Below are positions 15,509 to 30,268 of a DNA stretch of 32,744 nucleotides, in pieces. Within the stretch, counting starts at the first letter, position 1. Each line of letters opens with the position of its first letter. The notes below the pieces were generated by a model, which worked only from the letters and a program-made list of their open reading frames with translations, did no database searches and was not told the origin of the DNA. The stretch covers positions 1 to 32,744 of the forward strand of contig JASJCN010000015.1 of assembly GCA_030065975.1 (NCBI GenBank), read 5' to 3'. The position numbers were made by a program, and so were the translations under genes. Source of the DNA: Myxococcota bacterium (GTDB lineage: Bacteria > Myxococcota_A > UBA9160 > UBA6930).

Positions 15509-16921
15509 ATGAGCGAGCGGAACACACAGATTCTCGTCGTGGACGACCAGGAGCTGTACCGGCGCGCCCTGCGCCGGGTGCTCTCGCGCGCCGGACACGA
15601 GGTCGTCGAGGCGCGCGACGCCAGCGAGGCGATGGGCATCGTCACGAGCCAGCCCCTCGATCTGGTGCTGTGCGACGTCAAGATGCCGGGGCTCTCGGGC
15701 TTCGAGCTGGTCCGCCAGATCCGCGACGCCTGCCCGGACCTGCCCTGCATCATCATCACCGGCTACGCCAGCTCGGAGAGCTCGGTGGAGGCCCTGCGCT
15801 CCGGCGCCTTCTGGTACCTGGAGAAGCCCCTCGAGCCGGCCCAGCAGGACGTCCTGCGGCGGCTGGTGGACCAGGCGATCGAGCACTCGCGCCTCAAGAC
15901 CCACAACCGCCTGCTGCAGGATCAGCTCCAGAGCCGGTACCGCTTCGACAACATCGTGGGCGCCGACTCCGGCCTGCGCTCGGTCCTCGAGGTGGTGGGC
16001 AAGGTCGCGGACACCGACACGACCGTGCTCATCACCGGGGAGAGCGGAACGGGCAAGGAGCTGATCGCCCGCGCCCTGCACTACAACAGCCGGCGGGCCG
16101 ATCGCCCCCTGGTCACCGTCAACTGCGGCGCGATCCCCGAGGAGCTGCTCGAATCCGAGCTCTTCGGCCACGTGAAGGGCGCCTTCACCAATGCCGTGAG
16201 CAGCCGCGAGGGCCGCTTCGCCCTCGCCGACGGAGGCACCATCTTCCTCGACGAGATCGGGGACATGAGCCAGAACCTCCAGGTCAAGCTGCTCCGGGTG
16301 CTCCAGGAGAAGAGCTTCGATCCCGTGGGGTCGAACCGCACCCTCACCACGGACGTGCGGGTGGTGGCGGCCACCAACCAGGATCTCGAGCTCGCCCAGC
16401 GCGAGGGCCGGTTCCGCGAGGACCTCTTCTACCGGCTCAACGTGCTGCCCATCGAGCTCCCCGCCCTTCGCCACCGGCGCGAGGACGTCCCGCTGCTGGT
16501 CCGCCACTTCCTGAAGAACGTGCTCGAGCAGGAGCCCCAGCTCGGGCCCTGTCGGTTCACCGAGGAGGCCCTCGCCGGCCTGGTCGACTACGAGTGGCCC
16601 GGCAACGTCCGCGAGCTCGAGAACCTGGTGCGGCGCCTGGTGATCCTGAAGCGCAAGGGCGACATCCAGCAGGCCGATCTGCCTCCCTCCCTACGCTCGC
16701 ACGCCGCCACCGCCGACACCGCCGCGCCGCACCTCACGAGCGAAGGGCTCGTGCTGTCGGACGTGCTGGCGGACTGGGAGCGCCAGCTCGTGCTCCAGGC
16801 GCTCGAGCGCACGCACTGGAACAAGAACCAGGCGGCCAAGCTGCTCGGCATGAAGCGCCCCACCCTCGTCGACCGCATCCGACGGCTGGGGATCTCGCCC
16901 GAAGGCTCCGACGCCGACTAG
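15509..16921 (+). CDS. NtrC-type response regulator with GAFTNA variant (RR2)
   Basis: A 470-residue receiver/AAA+/Fis-HTH regulator. Receiver: VVDDQE, Asp56 in LVLCDVKMPG, switch Thr in IITGYASS, Lys106 in YLEKPL. AAA+: Walker A GESGTGKE (177-184), Walker B TIFLDEIGD, FREDLFYRLNV. The sigma-54-contacting loop reads GAFTNA (224-229) instead of GAFTGA. The C-terminal HTH is WNKNQAAKLLGMKRPTLVDRIRRLGI. AAAGG lies four bases before the ATG. It is divergent from RR1 and directly upstream, across a 417-base gap, of a FliA-type sigma factor with a sigma-54-like promoter, which it is well placed to control. Whether the G-to-N change affects sigma-54 engagement is unknown. Confidence 0.93.
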   Translation: MSERNTQILVVDDQELYRRALRRVLSRAGHEVVEARDASEAMGIVTSQPLDLVLCDVKMPGLSGFELVRQIRDACPDLPCIIITGYASSESSVEALRSGAFWYLEKPLEPAQQDVLRRLVDQAIEHSRLKTHNRLLQDQLQSRYRFDNIVGADSGLRSVLEVVGKVADTDTTVLITGESGTGKELIARALHYNSRRADRPLVTVNCGAIPEELLESELFGHVKGAFTNAVSSREGRFALADGGTIFLDEIGDMSQNLQVKLLRVLQEKSFDPVGSNRTLTTDVRVVAATNQDLELAQREGRFREDLFYRLNVLPIELPALRHRREDVPLLVRHFLKNVLEQEPQLGPCRFTEEALAGLVDYEWPGNVRELENLVRRLVILKRKGDIQQADLPPSLRSHAATADTAAPHLTSEGLVLSDVLADWERQLVLQALERTHWNKNQAAKLLGMKRPTLVDRIRRLGISPEGSDAD

Positions 16922-19235: not shown

Positions 19236-20894
19236 ATGCCCAAGACTCTGCTGCTCGCCGACGACAGCGTCACCATCCAGAAGGTCGTGGGGATCAGCTT
19301 CGCGAGCGAGGACATCGAGCTGGTCACCGTGGACAACGGCGACGACGCCGTGGCGAAGGCCCGCGAGGTCCGGCCCGACATCGTGCTGGCGGACGTCGTG
19401 ATGCCGGGCATGAACGGCTACGAGGTCTGCGAGGCGATCAAGTCCGATCCCCAGCTGCGCCACGTCCCGGTCCTGCTCCTGACCGGCACCTTCGAGGCCT
19501 TCGACGAGGGCCAGGCCGACGAGGCCGGTGCCGACGGTCACATCACCAAGCCCTTCGAGGCGCAGTCGCTGGTCGACCTGGTCAACGCGCGGCTCGCCGA
19601 CGCGCCGGCCCCGCCGCCTGCCCCCGAGCCCGCGCTGGCCGCCGACTCGACGCTCGACCCGGTGACGCCGGCTCCCGTGGAGGCGCCCGAGGCGCTCACG
19701 ACCCTCGAGCCCGTGCCCGTCGGCGAGGCCGCCCCCGAGCCGCCGGCCTTCGACTTTGCGGCCGGAGCCGAGACCCAGATCCCGAGCGAGCCCGCACCGG
19801 CGCCGGTCGTCGAGGTGAACCCGACGCCGAGCGAGGAGCCGGAGGCGCTCACCACGGCCATGCTCGTGGACGCCGACGACGACGAGGCCGCCCGCACCCA
19901 GCTCGCCTTCGCGCCCGAGCCGGCCGCGGAGACCTTCGTGGCCTTCCAGGAGGACGGCGCGGCCGATCTGTTCGGCGCGGCGCCGGGGACCGAGGCCGCG
20001 CCCTCGCCCAGCACCGACCTGCTGGTGACGCCGGAGCCGAGCTCTCCGTCGGAGGCCGCTTCGGATGCCTCGTCGGATCTGTTCGCCGAGACCGGCGCGA
20101 CCTTCGCCGCAGCCGAGGACGACGGCGAAGACCCGCTGGCCGGCGCCCTCGCCGAGCCTGCCGACCAGGCGCCCGCCGCGCATGCGGCCGACCCGGACCC
20201 GGGTCGCGACTACGACGTCTCGGTCTCCGACCTCGGCACGCCGCTCGTGCCGCTCGCGGCCAGCGACCCGCTGACCGCCGACCCCGTCGATCCCGCCGAG
20301 CCCGCGGAGCCCGGCGATCCGGCCGATGCGAGCCCCTTCGAGAGCGACGCGGACGACGTGGCGAGCCCCTTCGAGGCGGCTCCGGTCGACGCCGGGCTGC
20401 CCTCGATGGACACCGGCGAGCCGGTGTTCGCCGGCGAGGCTCCGGCCGAGGACTCGCCTTTCGCGGGCCAGGCCGGCATCTCGGAGCCCGGCGAGCCGGT
20501 CTTCTCGGGCGAGGCCGTCGCCGAGGAGCCGGTGTTCGCCGGCGAGGCAGCGGCCGAGGAGCCGGTCTTCTCGGGCGAAGCCGAGGTGCCCGAGCCCGTC
20601 TTCTCCGGTGAGACCGAGGCGGCCGAGCCCGTCTTCTCCGGTGAGGCCTTGGCAGAGCCCATCGTCGCGAGCGCGGGCGCCTCGGGCGAAGCGCTTCCCA
20701 TGGACGACGAGGAGCTCCGCGGGCGTCTCCACGAGACCCTCGAGCGGATGGCCTGGGACGCCTTCGGCGACGTCACCGAGAGGATCGTGAGCGAGGCGGT
20801 CGAGCGCATCGAGAAGGTGGCCTGGGAGGTCATCCCGCAGATGGCCGAGACGCTGATCCGCGAAGAGATCAAGCGCATGAAGGGCGACGACTAG
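19236..20894 (+). CDS. Response regulator with long A/P/E-rich linker and helical C-terminal domain
   Basis: A 552-residue protein. A complete receiver occupies about 1-120 (LADDS, Asp53 in IVLADVVMPGMNG, Thr83 in LLLTGTF, Lys105 in HITKPFE). About 370 residues of acidic, Ala/Pro-rich, probably disordered linker follow, including six EPVF(S/A)GE repeats at 395-471. The conserved C-terminal amphipathic helical region (about 490-552) has ERMAWDAFGDVTERI, EKVAWEVIPQMAETLI and REEIKRMKGDD. This architecture recurs in deltaproteobacterial genomes from memory. It resembles RomR of Myxococcus only in layout (receiver, Pro-rich linker, Glu-rich tail), so polarity control is speculative. There is no DNA-binding or enzymatic output. 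GGGGGGAAC precedes the ATG. Confidence 0.88.
   Translation: MPKTLLLADDSVTIQKVVGISFASEDIELVTVDNGDDAVAKAREVRPDIVLADVVMPGMNGYEVCEAIKSDPQLRHVPVLLLTGTFEAFDEGQADEAGADGHITKPFEAQSLVDLVNARLADAPAPPPAPEPALAADSTLDPVTPAPVEAPEALTTLEPVPVGEAAPEPPAFDFAAGAETQIPSEPAPAPVVEVNPTPSEEPEALTTAMLVDADDDEAARTQLAFAPEPAAETFVAFQEDGAADLFGAAPGTEAAPSPSTDLLVTPEPSSPSEAASDASSDLFAETGATFAAAEDDGEDPLAGALAEPADQAPAAHAADPDPGRDYDVSVSDLGTPLVPLAASDPLTADPVDPAEPAEPGDPADASPFESDADDVASPFEAAPVDAGLPSMDTGEPVFAGEAPAEDSPFAGQAGISEPGEPVFSGEAVAEEPVFAGEAAAEEPVFSGEAEVPEPVFSGETEAAEPVFSGEALAEPIVASAGASGEALPMDDEELRGRLHETLERMAWDAFGDVTERIVSEAVERIEKVAWEVIPQMAETLIREEIKRMKGDD
20418..20648 (+). repeat. EPVFSGEA octapeptide-coding repeats
   Basis: Six copies of EPVF(S/A)GE(A/T) are spaced by short acidic stretches within the linker of the receiver protein. 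The underlying gagccggtnttc(t/g)cnggcgag units are close copies, so the array probably grew by slippage or unequal recombination. A degenerate copy, SPFAGQA, lies between the first and second. Confidence 0.85.
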
Positions 20895-23724: not shown

Positions 23725-25782
23725 ATGCAAGAAGTCGAAGTCACGAAGACCCGGAGCTTCGCCCTGATCGGACACATGGCCGACGGGAAGACGACTCTGG
23801 GCGAGGCCCTGCTGCATGCCGCGGGCGCCACCGACGCCACGGGCTCCGTGGACTCGGGAACCTCGGTGCTCGACTTCTCTCCCGAGGAGCGCGACCGCCA
23901 CCACACCCTCTCCTCGAGCGTGTTCTCCTTCGACTGGGAGGGTCACCGGCTCACCCTCGTCGACACCCCAGGCGACTCCAACTTCCAGGCCGATGGCTGG
24001 ATCGCGCTGCCCGCCGTCGACGCCGCCGTACTGGTGATCTCGGCCAGCGACGGCGCCAAGGTCGGCAGCGAGCGCATGCTGGGAAAGGCCCAGGAGCTCG
24101 ACCTGGCCGCCGTGGCCGTGATCAACGGCCTCGACCAGGATCGCGCCGACTTCGCGGCCGCCCTCGAATCCCTCCGCACCGCCGGCGCGTCGGTGGTCGA
24201 AGCCAGCATTCCCATCGGCAGCGGAAGCGACCTCTCGGGCTGCGTCGACCTGATCTCGATGCAGGCCTTCGTCGGTGGCAACGCACAGCCGATCCCCGAC
24301 GACATGGCCGCCGAGGCGACCGCGGCCCGTGCCCGCCTGGTGGAGGCCGTCGCCGAGACCGACGACGAGCTCCTCGAGCGCTACCTCGAAGAGGGCGAGC
24401 TCGACGACGAGAGCGTGGCCCGTGGCCTCGTGACCGCCGTGCGCACGCGCCAGCTCGTGCCCGTGTTCGCCACTTCGGCCCTCCAGGGCATCGGGATCCA
24501 GCCGCTCCTCTCGGCGCTGACCGAGCTCCTGCCCTCGCCCCTCGAGCGCGCTCCCTTCGCGCTCGCCTCGGGCGACGGCGAGATCGCGGCGGATGCCGAG
24601 GCGCCCTTCAGCGCGCTCGTGTTCAAGACCTCGATCGACCGTTACTCGGGCACGCTCTCCTTCCTGCGCATCGTTTCCGGCCGTCTCGATCACGACACGC
24701 CGATCCTGAACGCGACGCGCGACACCCGCACGCGGCTCGGCAAGCTGCTCGTGGTCCGCGGCGAGTCCCACGAAGAGGTCCCGTCGGCCGGCCCCGGCGA
24801 CATCGTGGCGGTGGCGAAGGTCAAGGACGCCCATACCGGCGATGCCCTCACCTCCGAGAAGGGCGGCATCGTCCTCGCCCCCATCCCGATCCCGGAGGGC
24901 GTGCTCTCCTACGCGATCGAGGCCCACTCCTCCAAGGACGAGGACAAGGTCTTCACGGCGCTGGGCCGGCTGGTGGAGGAGGACCCGACGCTCCACCTCT
25001 CGCGCGACCCGGCCACCGGCGAGTTCCTGCTCACCGGCATGGGCGAGCTCCACATGCGGATCACCGTCCGCAAGCTCTCGCGGCTCTACAACGCCGAGGT
25101 CGACCTGAAGACGCCGAAGGTCCCCTACCGGGAGACCATCACCGGCACGGCGGCCAACGTGGAGGGCAAGCTCAAGAAGCAGACCGGCGGCAAGGGCATG
25201 TTCGGCGTCTGCTTCCTGACCGTGGAGCCGCTGCCCCGCGGGGGCGGAGTCGAGTTCGTCGACGAGATCGTGGGCGGCGCCATCCCGCGCAACCTGATCC
25301 CGGCCGTGGAGAAGGGGGTGCTCGAGTCGGCGGAGGCCGGGCCCCTGGCGGGCTACCCGGTGGTCGACGTCCGGGTGCGCTGCATCGATGGCAAGCACCA
25401 CTCCGTCGACAGCAACGAGATGGCCTTCAAGCTGGCGGGCTCCTTCGGCTTCAAGGCTGGGGTGGAACAGGCCCGCCCCACCCTGCTCGAGCCGATCATG
25501 AAGGCCGAGATCACCGTGCCCGACGACCACGTGGGCGACGTCATGGGAGACGTCTCGAGCCGCCGCGGGCGGGTCCAGAACACCGAGGCCCGCGGCGCCA
25601 ATCAGGTCATCAAGGCGGAGGTGCCGATGGCCGAAATGCTCGAATACGCGAGTGCCCTCACCAGCCTGACCGGCGGGACGGGGGCGTTCCACATGGAGTT
25701 TTCCCACTACGACGAGGTGCCCGCCTACGAGCGGGACAAGATCGTCGCAGAGGCCCGGAGAGAGCGAGCCGCCGAGTCCTGA
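23725..25782 (+). CDS. EF-G paralogue (FusA2-like) with altered GTPase motifs
   Basis: A 685-residue protein with all five EF-G domains. Domain IV is recognisable from EGKLKKQTGGKGMFG and VGGAIPRNLIPAVEKGV, and domain V from LEPIMKAEITVP and MGDVSSRRGRV. In the G domain, G1 is GHMADGKTT (16-24) and G2 keeps Thr61. G3 is DTPGDSNF (80-87) where canonical EF-G has DTPGH, so the catalytic His is Asp84. G4 is NGLD (134-137) instead of NKxD. Slower hydrolysis or altered guanine contact is likely, and it is probably not the main elongation EF-G. AAAGGAGG lies nine bases before the ATG. Role is unknown; other FusA2 proteins have been linked to specialised or stress translation. Confidence 0.9.
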   Translation: MQEVEVTKTRSFALIGHMADGKTTLGEALLHAAGATDATGSVDSGTSVLDFSPEERDRHHTLSSSVFSFDWEGHRLTLVDTPGDSNFQADGWIALPAVDAAVLVISASDGAKVGSERMLGKAQELDLAAVAVINGLDQDRADFAAALESLRTAGASVVEASIPIGSGSDLSGCVDLISMQAFVGGNAQPIPDDMAAEATAARARLVEAVAETDDELLERYLEEGELDDESVARGLVTAVRTRQLVPVFATSALQGIGIQPLLSALTELLPSPLERAPFALASGDGEIAADAEAPFSALVFKTSIDRYSGTLSFLRIVSGRLDHDTPILNATRDTRTRLGKLLVVRGESHEEVPSAGPGDIVAVAKVKDAHTGDALTSEKGGIVLAPIPIPEGVLSYAIEAHSSKDEDKVFTALGRLVEEDPTLHLSRDPATGEFLLTGMGELHMRITVRKLSRLYNAEVDLKTPKVPYRETITGTAANVEGKLKKQTGGKGMFGVCFLTVEPLPRGGGVEFVDEIVGGAIPRNLIPAVEKGVLESAEAGPLAGYPVVDVRVRCIDGKHHSVDSNEMAFKLAGSFGFKAGVEQARPTLLEPIMKAEITVPDDHVGDVMGDVSSRRGRVQNTEARGANQVIKAEVPMAEMLEYASALTSLTGGTGAFHMEFSHYDEVPAYERDKIVAEARRERAAES

Positions 25783-25853: not shown

Positions 25854-26966
25854 GTGGTCGCAGGGCAGCCGGAGAAGGCGCAGAACGAGCGGATCAAGCT
25901 GCGGATCTCGCAGCAGGCCGAGCGCTACGTGCGCCGCGACGCCCCCGTGGAATCGCGGCGGATCGCGGCCGGCGGAGCCCTGCCCCTGCCGCCGGTGGAG
26001 CTGGCGACGGTCCTCTTCGCGCTGACCCACGACCCCGACGCCTCGGTCAAGGAGCGCGCCCAGAAGAGCCTCGAAGAGCTGCCGGACAACGTCTGCAACA
26101 CGGTGCTCAGCTCCGAGGAGAGCCAGGCCCCGGTGCTCTCCTACCTGGCGCACGCGTACAAGGACGATGCGGACCGCTCCGAGCGTCTGTCGCTGAACCC
26201 GAGCTGCGACGACCGCACCATCTGCTTCCTCGCGAGCCTGCCGCACCGGCGGGTGGTGGACATCGTCGCGAGCAACCAGCAGCGGCTGCTGCGCTGCCCG
26301 GAGATCGTGGATGCCCTGGGCGACAATCCGCTCACCGGCCGCGCCACCATCGATCGCATCCTCTCCTTCCTCGGCCTCGAGCGCCCGGCGGCCGAGGTGG
26401 TCGAGGACAGCGAGGACGACGCACTCCCGCCCCCGACGGAGATCACCGACGAGGACGCCCTCGACGCCCTGAAGCAGCTGCTCGGTGACGATGCCAGCGA
26501 GTTCGCTCCCGAGCTGCTGGCCGACCACGAGGGCGAGCTGGACGAGGAGGAGGAGGGAAGCCTCCTCTCCATGGTGTCCAAGATGAGCGTGATGCAGCGG
26601 GTGAAGCTGGCGCGCATGGGCAACAAGGAGGCGCGCAGCCTCCTGGTGCGCGACCGCAACAAGATCGTCGCCAGCGCCGCGATCCGCAGCCCGAAGATGA
26701 CCGACAACGAGGTCGAGGCCATCGCCAAGGCGCGCAACGTCTCCGACGAGGTCCTGCGGGTCGTCGCCAACAACCGCGACTGGACCCGCAACTACCAGGT
26801 CAAGCTGGGGCTGGCGACGAACCCCAAGTGTCCAGTACCCACTGCGCTCAAGTTCCTGAACTACCTCCAGGAGCGCGACCTGCGCAACATCATGAAGAGC
26901 AAGGACGTGGCTACGCCCGTGTCGACCCACGCGCGGCGCCTCCTGCAGAAGAAGGGAAAGATCTGA
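25854..26966 (+). CDS. Helical-repeat (LRV/HEAT-like) protein of the MglA-like module
   Basis: A 370-residue protein, unnamed. The N-terminal half has paired-helix, HEAT-like units (LATVLFALTHDPDASVKERA, then VLSYLAHAY). A very acidic hinge is at 181-235 (VVEDSEDDALPPP, LDEEEEGS). The C-terminal half has repeats with an LRV-like pattern, LLVRDRNKIVASAAIRSPKM, IAKARNVSDEVLRVVANNR and LGLATNPKCPVPTALKFLNYL. Such solenoids act as protein-binding scaffolds. Its stop overlaps the ATG of the MglA-like GTPase by one base (TGATG), strongly implying a joint function. The GTG start at 25854 is the best I can find, with GAAGGAG ten bases upstream inside a hairpin. No signal peptide, so cytoplasmic. Confidence 0.82.
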   Translation: MVAGQPEKAQNERIKLRISQQAERYVRRDAPVESRRIAAGGALPLPPVELATVLFALTHDPDASVKERAQKSLEELPDNVCNTVLSSEESQAPVLSYLAHAYKDDADRSERLSLNPSCDDRTICFLASLPHRRVVDIVASNQQRLLRCPEIVDALGDNPLTGRATIDRILSFLGLERPAAEVVEDSEDDALPPPTEITDEDALDALKQLLGDDASEFAPELLADHEGELDEEEEGSLLSMVSKMSVMQRVKLARMGNKEARSLLVRDRNKIVASAAIRSPKMTDNEVEAIAKARNVSDEVLRVVANNRDWTRNYQVKLGLATNPKCPVPTALKFLNYLQERDLRNIMKSKDVATPVSTHARRLLQKKGKI

Positions 26967-27892
26967 TGACGGAGTTCACGGGCGAGGCGGAGCTGGTGGA
27001 CGCTCGGATCGTCTACTGGGGCGTCGACGGCTCGGGCAAGCGCAGCAACATGCGGGTGATCCACGGCAAGCTCCGCCCGGACCACCGGGGCGACCTGCGG
27101 GAGGTCCCGACCCGCCTGGACCCGACCGTGACCTACGCGGTGCTTCCCATCGAGCTCGGCATGATCGGCGGCGTGCGGACCCGCATCCAGATCGTCGCGG
27201 TGCCGGGAGCGCCGGAGCACGCGCCGACGCGCAAGCAGCTGCTCGACGGGACCGACGGCGTGGTCTTCGTGGTCGATGCCTCGAAGGATCGCGTGGACGA
27301 GAACCTGCGTAGCTTCGAGGAGCTGCGCAGCGCGCTCCAGGACTACGGACGGAACCTGGAAGAGGTGCCGCTCGTCATCCAGTACAACAAGCGGGATCTG
27401 GGCGACGCCTTCACCCTGGACGAGCTGCACCGCAAGTTCTCCATGCGGGGCGTGGCGGCCTTCGAGGCGGTCGCCGATGAAGGCACGGCCGTGCTGCAGA
27501 CCCTCACGACGATCTCCAAGCGGGTCATCCGGACCATGCGCGAGCGCAACCCGGATCTCGGCGCGCCGGCGGCGTCCTCGGCCCCGGCTGCACCCGTGGC
27601 CCCGGAGGCGCCCGCCGCGCCGGCCCCGGCCGAGGTCGCAGCCCCCGCCCCGGCCCCGCCCCCGGCGGAGATGCTGAGCGAGACCCGGGCCGTGCTCGAC
27701 AAGAGCTTCGAGGAGGCGCGTGCGGCGGTCGAGGCCGAGGGCCCCGGCCTGCGCATCGCAAGCGTGGGTCAGGCGTCCCAGGAAGGCGACCACGGCCTGC
27801 GCATTCCGCTCTCGCTCGAGGACGAAGAAGGACGCGCCCGCCGCGTCGTCCTGCGCGTCACCCTCGAGCCCGAGGGCTCTGGAACGAGCTGA
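26966..27892 (+). CDS. MglA-like small GTPase with altered P-loop and C-terminal extension
   Basis: A 308-residue protein whose residues about 8-195 are MglA-like: YWGVDGSGKRSNMRVIHGKL for the P-loop, a VAVPGAPEHAPTRKQLLDGTDGVVFV switch-II run matching the TVPG...RK..L.G.DG pattern of MglA, and LVIQYNKRDL with a canonical G4 (NKRD, 141-144). The P-loop reads GVDGSGKRS (19-27): Arg26 replaces the Mg-coordinating Thr/Ser after the Lys. An Ala/Pro/Glu-rich linker (200-235) and a small C-terminal domain (about 236-305), absent in MglA, follow. MglA sets cell polarity in Myxococcus, but no MglB gene is adjacent and the function here is inferred only. Start overlaps the upstream stop by one base. 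Confidence 0.88.
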   Translation: MTEFTGEAELVDARIVYWGVDGSGKRSNMRVIHGKLRPDHRGDLREVPTRLDPTVTYAVLPIELGMIGGVRTRIQIVAVPGAPEHAPTRKQLLDGTDGVVFVVDASKDRVDENLRSFEELRSALQDYGRNLEEVPLVIQYNKRDLGDAFTLDELHRKFSMRGVAAFEAVADEGTAVLQTLTTISKRVIRTMRERNPDLGAPAASSAPAAPVAPEAPAAPAPAEVAAPAPAPPPAEMLSETRAVLDKSFEEARAAVEAEGPGLRIASVGQASQEGDHGLRIPLSLEDEEGRARRVVLRVTLEPEGSGTS

Positions 27893-27979
27893 TGCGGGGT
27901 CGCCTGGGGAAGCTCTGCACAGGTGCCGTCCGGCGCGAGCCCATGCGCCGCCGCGCGGCCCTCGGGGCCGGGTCCTGAC

Positions 27980-30268
27980 GTGCGCCGCAGCGTCGTCCTC
28001 TACGGGGCGTCGGACGAGTCGCTCGGGCTGCTGCCGGTGCTCGAGGAGAGCCCGGACGTCGAGATCGTGGCGATCTTCGACCCCGACCTCGCGGCGACCC
28101 GGGAGCGCCTGACCAAGCTGCACCCGAGCGTGGCCGAGCGCATGGCCTCGCGACTGGTGGATCGCACCGACCTGCTCTCCGGGCCGGTGGGCGCGGTGGT
28201 CGATGCGGGAACCCTCGAGCCCTTCGCCCAGGCCTTCCCCGAAGCTTCGGGCCGCGGCATCCAGATCGTCTCGCCGCTCACCGCGCGGCTGCTCTTCGGC
28301 TACGGCGGCGCGGATCCCGCTCACAAGGCGGAGCTGCTCCAGGCCCTGCGCGAGATCGTCGAGTCGGTGAACCTGACCGTGGACACCGACGAGCTGTTCG
28401 CCCGCATGCTCGAGATCGCCATGGCGGTCACCGGGGCGGACGGCGGCTCGCTGATGCTGCTCGACCCCGGCGGGAAGGAGCTGCGGATCCGCGTGGCGCG
28501 CGGCGTCGAGCCCGAGCTGTGGCCGAAGATCCGGGTCCCGGTGGGCTCCGGCGTGGCCGGCCGCGTGGCGGCACTCGGGCGGCCGCTCAAGATCCGCGGC
28601 CGCGCCGAGCGCGAGGACTTCCGGCTGCTGCGCGAGCGCATCGACGTGGAGTCGGCGCTGTGCGTGCCGCTGATCCACGCGGGGCGAACCCTCGGTGTGC
28701 TGAACCTCCACCACAGCAATCGCAGCGACGCCTTCGACGACGACGATCTCGCCTTCGCCGAAGAGCTCGGCCACCTCGACGCGCAGATCATCCACCGCGC
28801 CCAGGAGCACGAGCAGCTGCGCCGCGACGCGAGCCGCTACTCGGCAGTGCGCGAGGTGCGGGCGGCGCTGGCCGGAACGGCTCCCCTGCTCGACCGCCTG
28901 GCCGCGCTGTGCCGCAACCTGGCCGAACGCATGGGCGACGGCGTCGCCACGGTGCAGCTGCACGACCCCGACGAGCACGAGCTGCGCCTCGGCGCCACCT
29001 CGCTGGCCGGCGCCGGGCTCGGGGCCGAGCTGCGCACCCACCTGGGCGAGGGCCTCGAGGGCCGTGCGGCCGAGTCGCGCAGCCCCCTCTTCCTGCGCCA
29101 GGACGGCGGACGCCTGGGCTTCGCCGCCCTCCCCCTCCTCTCGGGCAGCCATCTCGTGGGGGTGCTCTCGGTGCAGACCGGCGGCCGCGAGCCCTCGCTG
29201 GGCCGTGGACGCGCGCTGGAGGAGACGCTGCTCGAGGTCGCCGCCGCCGTCGCCGACGAGGTGGCACAGTCCGAGCGGGAGACGCGCATCCAGAGCCGCG
29301 CCAACAAGGTCTCGGCGATCAACGAGGCGGGCATCCGACTGGTCTCCACGCGCGACCTCGCCGAGGTAGCGCGGCTCGCGACGTCATCCGGCGCGTTGAT
29401 CCTCGACGCCGACCACGCGGTGCTTCGGCTCCAGGATCCCGAGACGCGCCGCTACGTGATCCGGTCGTACTACGGATCCGCCGACGGCCGCACCCAGGAA
29501 CGCCTCTTCCGGCTGGACAAGCAGGTCGCGGTCGACTCGCTCAAGCTGCGGGCGCCGCGCCTGGTGCGCCACGTCGACGAGGTGCCCGCCTACGTCGAGC
29601 GCGACGGGGGCGCCTCCTCGGTGATGTCGGCGCCCCTGGCCCGTCAGGGAGCCATGGTCGGAACCCTCTCGCTCTACGACAAGATCCGGCCCGACGCCTT
29701 CCACGCCGGGCCCTTCCGCGACGACGACTTCCAGATCTTCAATCGCTGGGTATCGTACGTGGAGCGCGCCCTCGACGGGGCGCTCTCGTGGTCGCGAAGC
29801 CAGCAGCACAAGAGCTTCGACGAGGAGACGGGCCTCCCGAACGCCGACTACCTCGCAAGGCGTGTGGAGCAGGAGGTGGCGCGCGCCGCCACGCGCCCGG
29901 GCAGCCTGTGCGTCGCCACCTGCCGCATCGAGAACTTCGCGTCGATCCGACAGCGGGGCGACGCCGGCCACGTCGAGCGCCTGCTCCAGAAGCTCGCGAG
30001 CTCCCTGCGCGAGCAGCTGCGGGACTTCGACGTGCTGGCCCGCAGCGCCGACGACGAGTTCGCCATGCTGCTCCCCGAGCCCGGGAACAGCGAGGCCCGG
30101 GTCACCGAGCTGGCGCGATCGGTGGCGGACCAGTTCGCGAAGGAGGAGCGCTGGAGCCGCCCCGAGCGGCCGGCCCTGGCCTTCGGCCACGCGGTCCACC
30201 CGGCCGACGGCGAGAGCGGCCCCGCCCTGATGGAGCGGGCGCGCCAGGCGCGGATCCGTCTGATCTAG
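27980..30268 (+). CDS. Rossmann-GAF-GAF-GAF protein with degenerate GGDEF domain
   Basis: A 762-residue cytoplasmic signalling protein. Residues 1-110 look like a Rossmann-type nucleotide-binding domain (SVVLYGASDESLGLLPVL, then IVAIFDPD). Three GAF-like domains follow at about 115-275 (DGGSLMLLD, ALCVPLIHAGRTLGVLNLHH), 290-430 and 440-600. The C-terminal 612-760 is GGDEF-like (EETGLPNADYLARRV), but the active-site motif is SADDEF (689-694) and the metal-binding Asp is lost (CRIENFASI), so cyclic-di-GMP synthesis is unlikely. It probably binds ligands or nucleotides and signals to the GTPase upstream, 87 bases away. The start is uncertain: GTG 27980 begins at the fold; GTG 27923 has a better GGGGAAG upstream. 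Confidence 0.85.
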   Translation: MRRSVVLYGASDESLGLLPVLEESPDVEIVAIFDPDLAATRERLTKLHPSVAERMASRLVDRTDLLSGPVGAVVDAGTLEPFAQAFPEASGRGIQIVSPLTARLLFGYGGADPAHKAELLQALREIVESVNLTVDTDELFARMLEIAMAVTGADGGSLMLLDPGGKELRIRVARGVEPELWPKIRVPVGSGVAGRVAALGRPLKIRGRAEREDFRLLRERIDVESALCVPLIHAGRTLGVLNLHHSNRSDAFDDDDLAFAEELGHLDAQIIHRAQEHEQLRRDASRYSAVREVRAALAGTAPLLDRLAALCRNLAERMGDGVATVQLHDPDEHELRLGATSLAGAGLGAELRTHLGEGLEGRAAESRSPLFLRQDGGRLGFAALPLLSGSHLVGVLSVQTGGREPSLGRGRALEETLLEVAAAVADEVAQSERETRIQSRANKVSAINEAGIRLVSTRDLAEVARLATSSGALILDADHAVLRLQDPETRRYVIRSYYGSADGRTQERLFRLDKQVAVDSLKLRAPRLVRHVDEVPAYVERDGGASSVMSAPLARQGAMVGTLSLYDKIRPDAFHAGPFRDDDFQIFNRWVSYVERALDGALSWSRSQQHKSFDEETGLPNADYLARRVEQEVARAATRPGSLCVATCRIENFASIRQRGDAGHVERLLQKLASSLREQLRDFDVLARSADDEFAMLLPEPGNSEARVTELARSVADQFAKEERWSRPERPALAFGHAVHPADGESGPALMERARQARIRLI

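Follow-up and report, generated by a model that had tools for sequence, protein, structure and literature searches.

A Group 1-type paralog of the polarity GTPase MglA, encoded next to a HEAT/ARM-like solenoid gene, is very probably a pseudoGTPase. As judged from sequence comparison, neither the arginine finger nor the catalytic glutamine survives in this protein throughout its order and class, while the G fold and purifying selection are kept, and we therefore classify it as a pseudoGTPase. The gene lies in a conserved unit on a window of 32,744 nucleotides (the whole stretch of DNA analyzed), which corresponds to contig C276 in a MAG of 5.54 Mb (85.5% complete); it was analyzed among relatives of the same order, one of which is MAG UBA9160, filed by NCBI under Myxococcota. 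There is about an even chance that the module at 25854-30268, taken together with an upstream EF-G-like gene, is a signaling adaptor in which the solenoid and the dead MglA feed c-di-GMP and GAF signals into RomR-MglA polarity.

Organization and conservation of the module

The module consists of a HEAT/ARM-like solenoid gene (gene 1, 25854-26966), the MglA-derived gene (gene 2, 26966-27892) and a gene for a protein with a Rossmann-like region, three GAF domains and a degenerate GGDEF domain (gene 3, 27923-30268). All three open reading frames are stop-free and located, with the features described within them, on the + strand. A first-pass annotation of the sequence had described a three-gene row with a 1-base overlap of the first two genes, in agreement with the reading frames and with the TGATG junction at which genes 1 and 2 share one base. 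The conserved unit extends beyond these three genes and includes an EF-G-like translation factor gene of the PRK12740 subfamily upstream (23725-25782, + strand), which synteny identifies as its fourth member. An NtrC-type sigma-54 response regulator is encoded at 15509-16921, upstream of the cluster. PADLOC returned no defence match and a defence role was therefore dropped.

Searches with the window proteins against related loci using tblastn recover the gene order EF-G-like, HEAT, GTPase, GAF in almost all order-level loci whose length allows a judgement. This arrangement recurs in another family of the class (f12) and in the distantly related loci L008 and L020, and L012, located on a short contig, contains the HEAT gene followed by the GTPase gene. 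Of 78 loci, 54 show an overlap of exactly 1 nt between the HEAT and GTPase genes, and a further six show one of 4 nt. Conserved synteny had been proposed at first pass as a check, with its absence counting against the module; the synteny is strong, so that this objection does not apply and the three genes represent a genuine conserved unit in related genomes. Gene 3 is not obligatory because GAF proteins are shortened or missing in some lineages (L158, L161 and L240). At one locus of genome G081 (L287 762-3423), the EF-G-like and HEAT genes are followed by a weak match to the GAF protein with no GTPase gene between.

Gene 2 encodes a probable MglA-derived pseudoGTPase

The 308 amino acid gene 2 protein matches Myxococcus xanthus MglA in the PDB with 133 bits and its predicted model aligns with MglA 6h17 at a TM score of 0.92; fold and sequence homology are those of MglA Group 1. 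The base-recognition motif NKRD conforms to NKxD and Lys25 is intact. The P-loop GVDGSGKRS (27020-27046) deviates from the Group 1 pattern GxxxxGK[ST] through an arginine (27041-27043) at the position of MglA Thr26, and the G3 motif reads AVPGA instead of the Group 1 TVPGQ that carries the catalytic glutamine, with alanine (27209-27211) replacing MglA Gln82. Arg53, the arginine finger of MglA (PMC6876712), is replaced by proline (27122-27124); the arginine finger in G2 is described as conserved throughout Group 1 (PMC4316618). M. xanthus strains carrying MglA K25A, T26N or Q82A/R are non-motile and MglA is undetectable in them (PMC3000849). Residues 234-299 (27665-27862) form a C-terminal extension of a helix and a small beta unit, the latter predicted at high confidence, which is conserved in relatives including L008, L012 and L020. 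The MglA-like identity, the P-loop Thr-to-Arg change and the C-terminal extension had all been recognized at first pass, and correctly so.

Residue tallies over 77 orthologs (70 order-level and 7 class-level) show Arg53 in 1/70 and 0/7, respectively, with proline in 68 of the 70, and Gln82 likewise in 1/70 and 0/7. Judging by these alignments, the lineage-wide change is the loss of both MglA catalytic residues. The P-loop lysine is present in 53/70 order and 5/7 class orthologs, the following residue is threonine or serine in 47/70 and arginine in 12/70 order orthologs, and the NKxD asparagine is kept in 65/70. Mapped on the HEAT tree, the arginine state at the Thr26 position needs at least 6 changes and P-loop lysine loss at least 11. 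Thr-to-Arg was consequently rejected as the key change, being only one recurrent P-loop variant. In genus g24 (G045, G051, G069 and G079; loci L282, L283, L284 and L285), nearly all nucleotide motifs are gone and the gene is still syntenic with HEAT. The module GTPases of L008, L012 and L020, which lie outside the class and adjoin the same HEAT gene, are fully canonical and retain every catalytic residue. The order and class pseudoGTPases form a single group with 100/100 support. Genome G118 (L272 3946-5619) encodes a 558 amino acid MglA-like protein with canonical motifs, a very long branch and an extra extension.

Pairwise dN/dS values of 0.08-0.40 among gene 2 orthologs indicate purifying selection and a decaying gene was rejected on this basis. 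Set against active MglAs, the gene 2 orthologs drop in information content from 3.94 to 2.92 bits in the P-loop and from 4.00 to 3.10 in NKxD and gain in alpha4, beta6 and alpha5 (alpha5 from 2.45 to 3.04), where only the relative pattern counts because the two sets are unequal in phylogenetic depth. In this relative pattern, the nucleotide pocket has lost constraint and the alpha4-beta6-alpha5 face has gained it, a shift to be expected if a protein is retained for binding.

These observations bear directly on how the gene 2 product might work. At first pass it had been read as a possible nucleotide-state switch under the control of the scaffold or the GAF protein, a model that is unlikely given that Arg53 and Gln82 are gone across order and class and that constraint on the P-loop and NKxD is relaxed; a pseudoGTPase serving as an adaptor fits the data better. 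An altered yet working MglA-like GTPase, for which the scaffold or GAF protein replaces MglB and provides catalytic residues in trans, appears quite improbable. NKxD and the P-loop lysine do remain in most orthologs and supply in trans has been proposed, with MglA of Groups 2-5 lacking the arginine and Group 1 Rup lacking the glutamine (PMC4316618), but here arginine and glutamine are both lost within one gene family that has also lost the lysine repeatedly, some lineages are almost motif-free and constraint has left the pocket. The catalytic losses, the repeated lysine loss under continued purifying selection and the canonical state of distant relatives therefore argue for a pseudoGTPase rather than a rewired switch.

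Nucleotide may still bind to the gene 2 product because NKxD is mostly intact. It is conceivable, if doubtful, that the protein is not nucleotide-free but permanently GTP-bound and never hydrolyzing, similar to Rnd or to a constitutive pilus effector of the Bdellovibrio MglA type. The window protein retains NKxD and Lys25, the GTPgammaS form of MglA comes first among the matches to its predicted fold, and the MglA of Bdellovibrio is believed to be GTP-locked (PMC3983030). Against this, the Thr26-to-Arg change should disturb Mg2+ binding, the lysine, asparagine or aspartate is lost in several orthologs, and a conformation ranking obtained from a predicted model is weak evidence.

The flanking genes encode a predicted helical solenoid and a candidate c-di-GMP receptor

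The gene 1 product is a 370 amino acid protein of a family for which Pfam has no model, and its HEAT_2 match is sub-threshold only. Its predicted model is an all-helical solenoid in two halves (residues ca. 20-172 and 231-367) joined by an acidic hinge at residues 176-236 (26379-26561), a region modeled at low confidence in which Asp and Glu account for 19-45% of the linker compared to 14% of the whole protein. Model and linker composition thus bear out an earlier description as a helical-repeat protein with an acidic hinge. A fold search against the PDB yielded generic ARM/HEAT solenoids only (best E 4e-3), from which no functional relative was taken.

Pfam matches in the gene 3 product comprise three GAF domains and a GGDEF domain, next to a Rossmann-like region. 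These matches and the degenerate GGDEF signature SADDEF (30044-30061) confirm the domain composition given at first pass. Translation probably starts at the GTG at 27980, where orthologs align. None of the 33 orthologs that have the signature region contains an intact GG[DE]EF. At the position of the GGDEF c-di-GMP I-site, the window protein carries the RxxD motif RDFD (30020-30031), and across the same orthologs the arginine is present in 33/33 and the aspartate in 32/33, with RxxE in the remaining one. Conservation of this motif suggests that the gene 3 product is a c-di-GMP receptor candidate; RxxD is also found in about two thirds of the readable active GGDEF domains of G000 and G001, so its retention supports and does not prove such a role.

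A RomR-like gene adjoins the module and MglB is encoded elsewhere

The protein encoded at 19236-20894 (+ strand) looks like RomR. It contains a receiver domain, a long, disordered, acidic and proline-rich linker and a helical RomR-C with the invariant Trp and Pro in a C-terminal WEVIP helix, the architecture published for RomR (PMC3441718), and the assignment is one by architecture. A PDB sequence search with the C-terminal helix mostly returned designed proteins and nothing useful. Almost all genomes with a RomR-like C-terminal domain, this one included, have a single copy of it, and the position of the gene is conserved in both order and class. Among the 63 genomes that carry this gene and the HEAT gene on one contig, the two are no more than 10 kb apart in 62. 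This proximity makes polarity a sensible direction, so that of the first-pass proposal of a polarity or signaling switch the polarity part stands and the GTP/GDP switch part does not. A polarity role of the module would still be a tentative assignment, for which we see slightly less than an even chance.

No roadblock gene is seen within the window and no MglB is found within four genes of gene 2, the distance used for MglA Group 1. The single Robl_LC7 (MglB) gene of the genome (G000:C89) adjoins a canonical mglA on a different contig. The earlier statement that no MglB-type GAP is present is therefore correct for the window, in the sense of a GAP dedicated to the module, and incorrect for the genome. 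Action of an MglB on the module GTPase had been named as a possible refutation, and the location of the only MglB beside a different, canonical MglA does not point that way.

The HEAT family is spread across the phylum and elsewhere mostly adjoins EF-G-like genes, often with no MglA present (families f16 and f20), from which it follows that its original role was not MglA-specific. This adjacency in many lineages without the GTPase, together with nadC, birA and coaX in the conserved gene block around the module, is compatible with a module that serves the EF-G-like protein in translation or ribosome quality control, with the RomR-like neighbor incidental to a large conserved block. Such a role is unlikely in our estimate, since what has been added is a paralog of MglA, the nearby RomR-like gene is present as a single copy, and HEAT-family genes in other lineages also adjoin polarity and pilus genes. 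Specifically, they are found directly downstream of canonical mglB-mglA in G144 and G169 (L148 2189-4002; L215 1730-3514) and next to pilM/pilN in L193, L202 and L203, where L202 and L203 carry the C-terminal half alone.

Module loss associates with PilM loss and MglB loss (Fisher p about 0.001 and 0.004, respectively), associations that are confounded by genome reduction. G003, G004, G007 and G083 carry neither the module nor the RomR-like gene, and MglB and a strong PilM match are missing from them as well. A strict link between the module and type IV pili was not accepted because several module-bearing genomes do not contain a strong PilM match.

Proposed function of the module

From these data we infer the following mechanism. 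The co-translated solenoid and pseudoGTPase would form a scaffold on which the gene 3 product, acting as a receptor for c-di-GMP and GAF ligands, could dock. The resulting complex would display an MglA-like surface to partners shared with MglA or to the RomR-like protein encoded nearby, and may in this way tune the canonical MglA/MglB polarity system, which is encoded separately, and probably type IV pili as well. In its strongest form, the proposal is that a lineage-wide bacterial family of Ras-like pseudoGTPases arose from MglA, no longer needs nucleotide and, together with the HEAT solenoid, serves as a constitutive adaptor between a c-di-GMP/GAF receptor and RomR-MglA polarity; we regard this full version as possible rather than probable.

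If correct, the pseudoenzyme route, in which an enzyme fold is retained as an adaptor, would be at work in a bacterial polarity system, and a missing link, the route by which c-di-GMP might act on RomR-MglA polarity, would become testable. The catalytically intact relatives located by the same HEAT gene in other lineages represent natural comparisons. Among the papers covered, a literature search on bacterial pseudoGTPases and MglA pseudoenzymes did not yield an MglA-type pseudoGTPase in bacteria.

Comparison with known systems

Gene 2 shares the fold (TM 0.92), about 35% sequence identity, the G3 Val-Pro-Gly and NKxD with M. xanthus Group 1 MglA (6h17, 5ymx). In contrast to MglA, it possesses no arginine finger, catalytic glutamine or coupled MglB, its P-loop is altered and it carries the C-terminal helix and beta extension. 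The RomR-like protein resembles RomR in its receiver domain, its disordered linker and the conserved Trp and Pro of its C-terminal helix. Bdellovibrio offers a precedent for the proposed mechanism, since its MglA functions in the absence of MglB and its RomR interacts with CdgA, a c-di-GMP receptor with a degenerate GGDEF domain (PMC3983030). The Bdellovibrio polarity network and the network proposed here both bring together an MglB-less MglA-type protein, a RomR or RomR-like protein and a degenerate GGDEF protein as actual or candidate c-di-GMP receptor. The Bdellovibrio protein has conserved GTP-binding residues in a genome from which mglB is absent (PMC3983030), while here catalysis appears to be lost and a canonical MglAB is also present. 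Similar to CdgA and other degenerate GGDEF c-di-GMP receptors, gene 3 has lost the GGDEF active site and carries RxxD at the I-site position; its GGDEF domain differs in being fused to a Rossmann-like domain and three GAF domains, and c-di-GMP binding is putative. Eukaryotic pseudoGTPases such as p190RhoGAP pG1/pG2, CENP-M and Rnd (PMC5593906) likewise combine a GTPase fold with missing G motifs and are kept for binding. The gene 2 product is distinguished from these by being bacterial and MglA-derived and by having its gene in one operon with those for a solenoid and a GAF/GGDEF protein.
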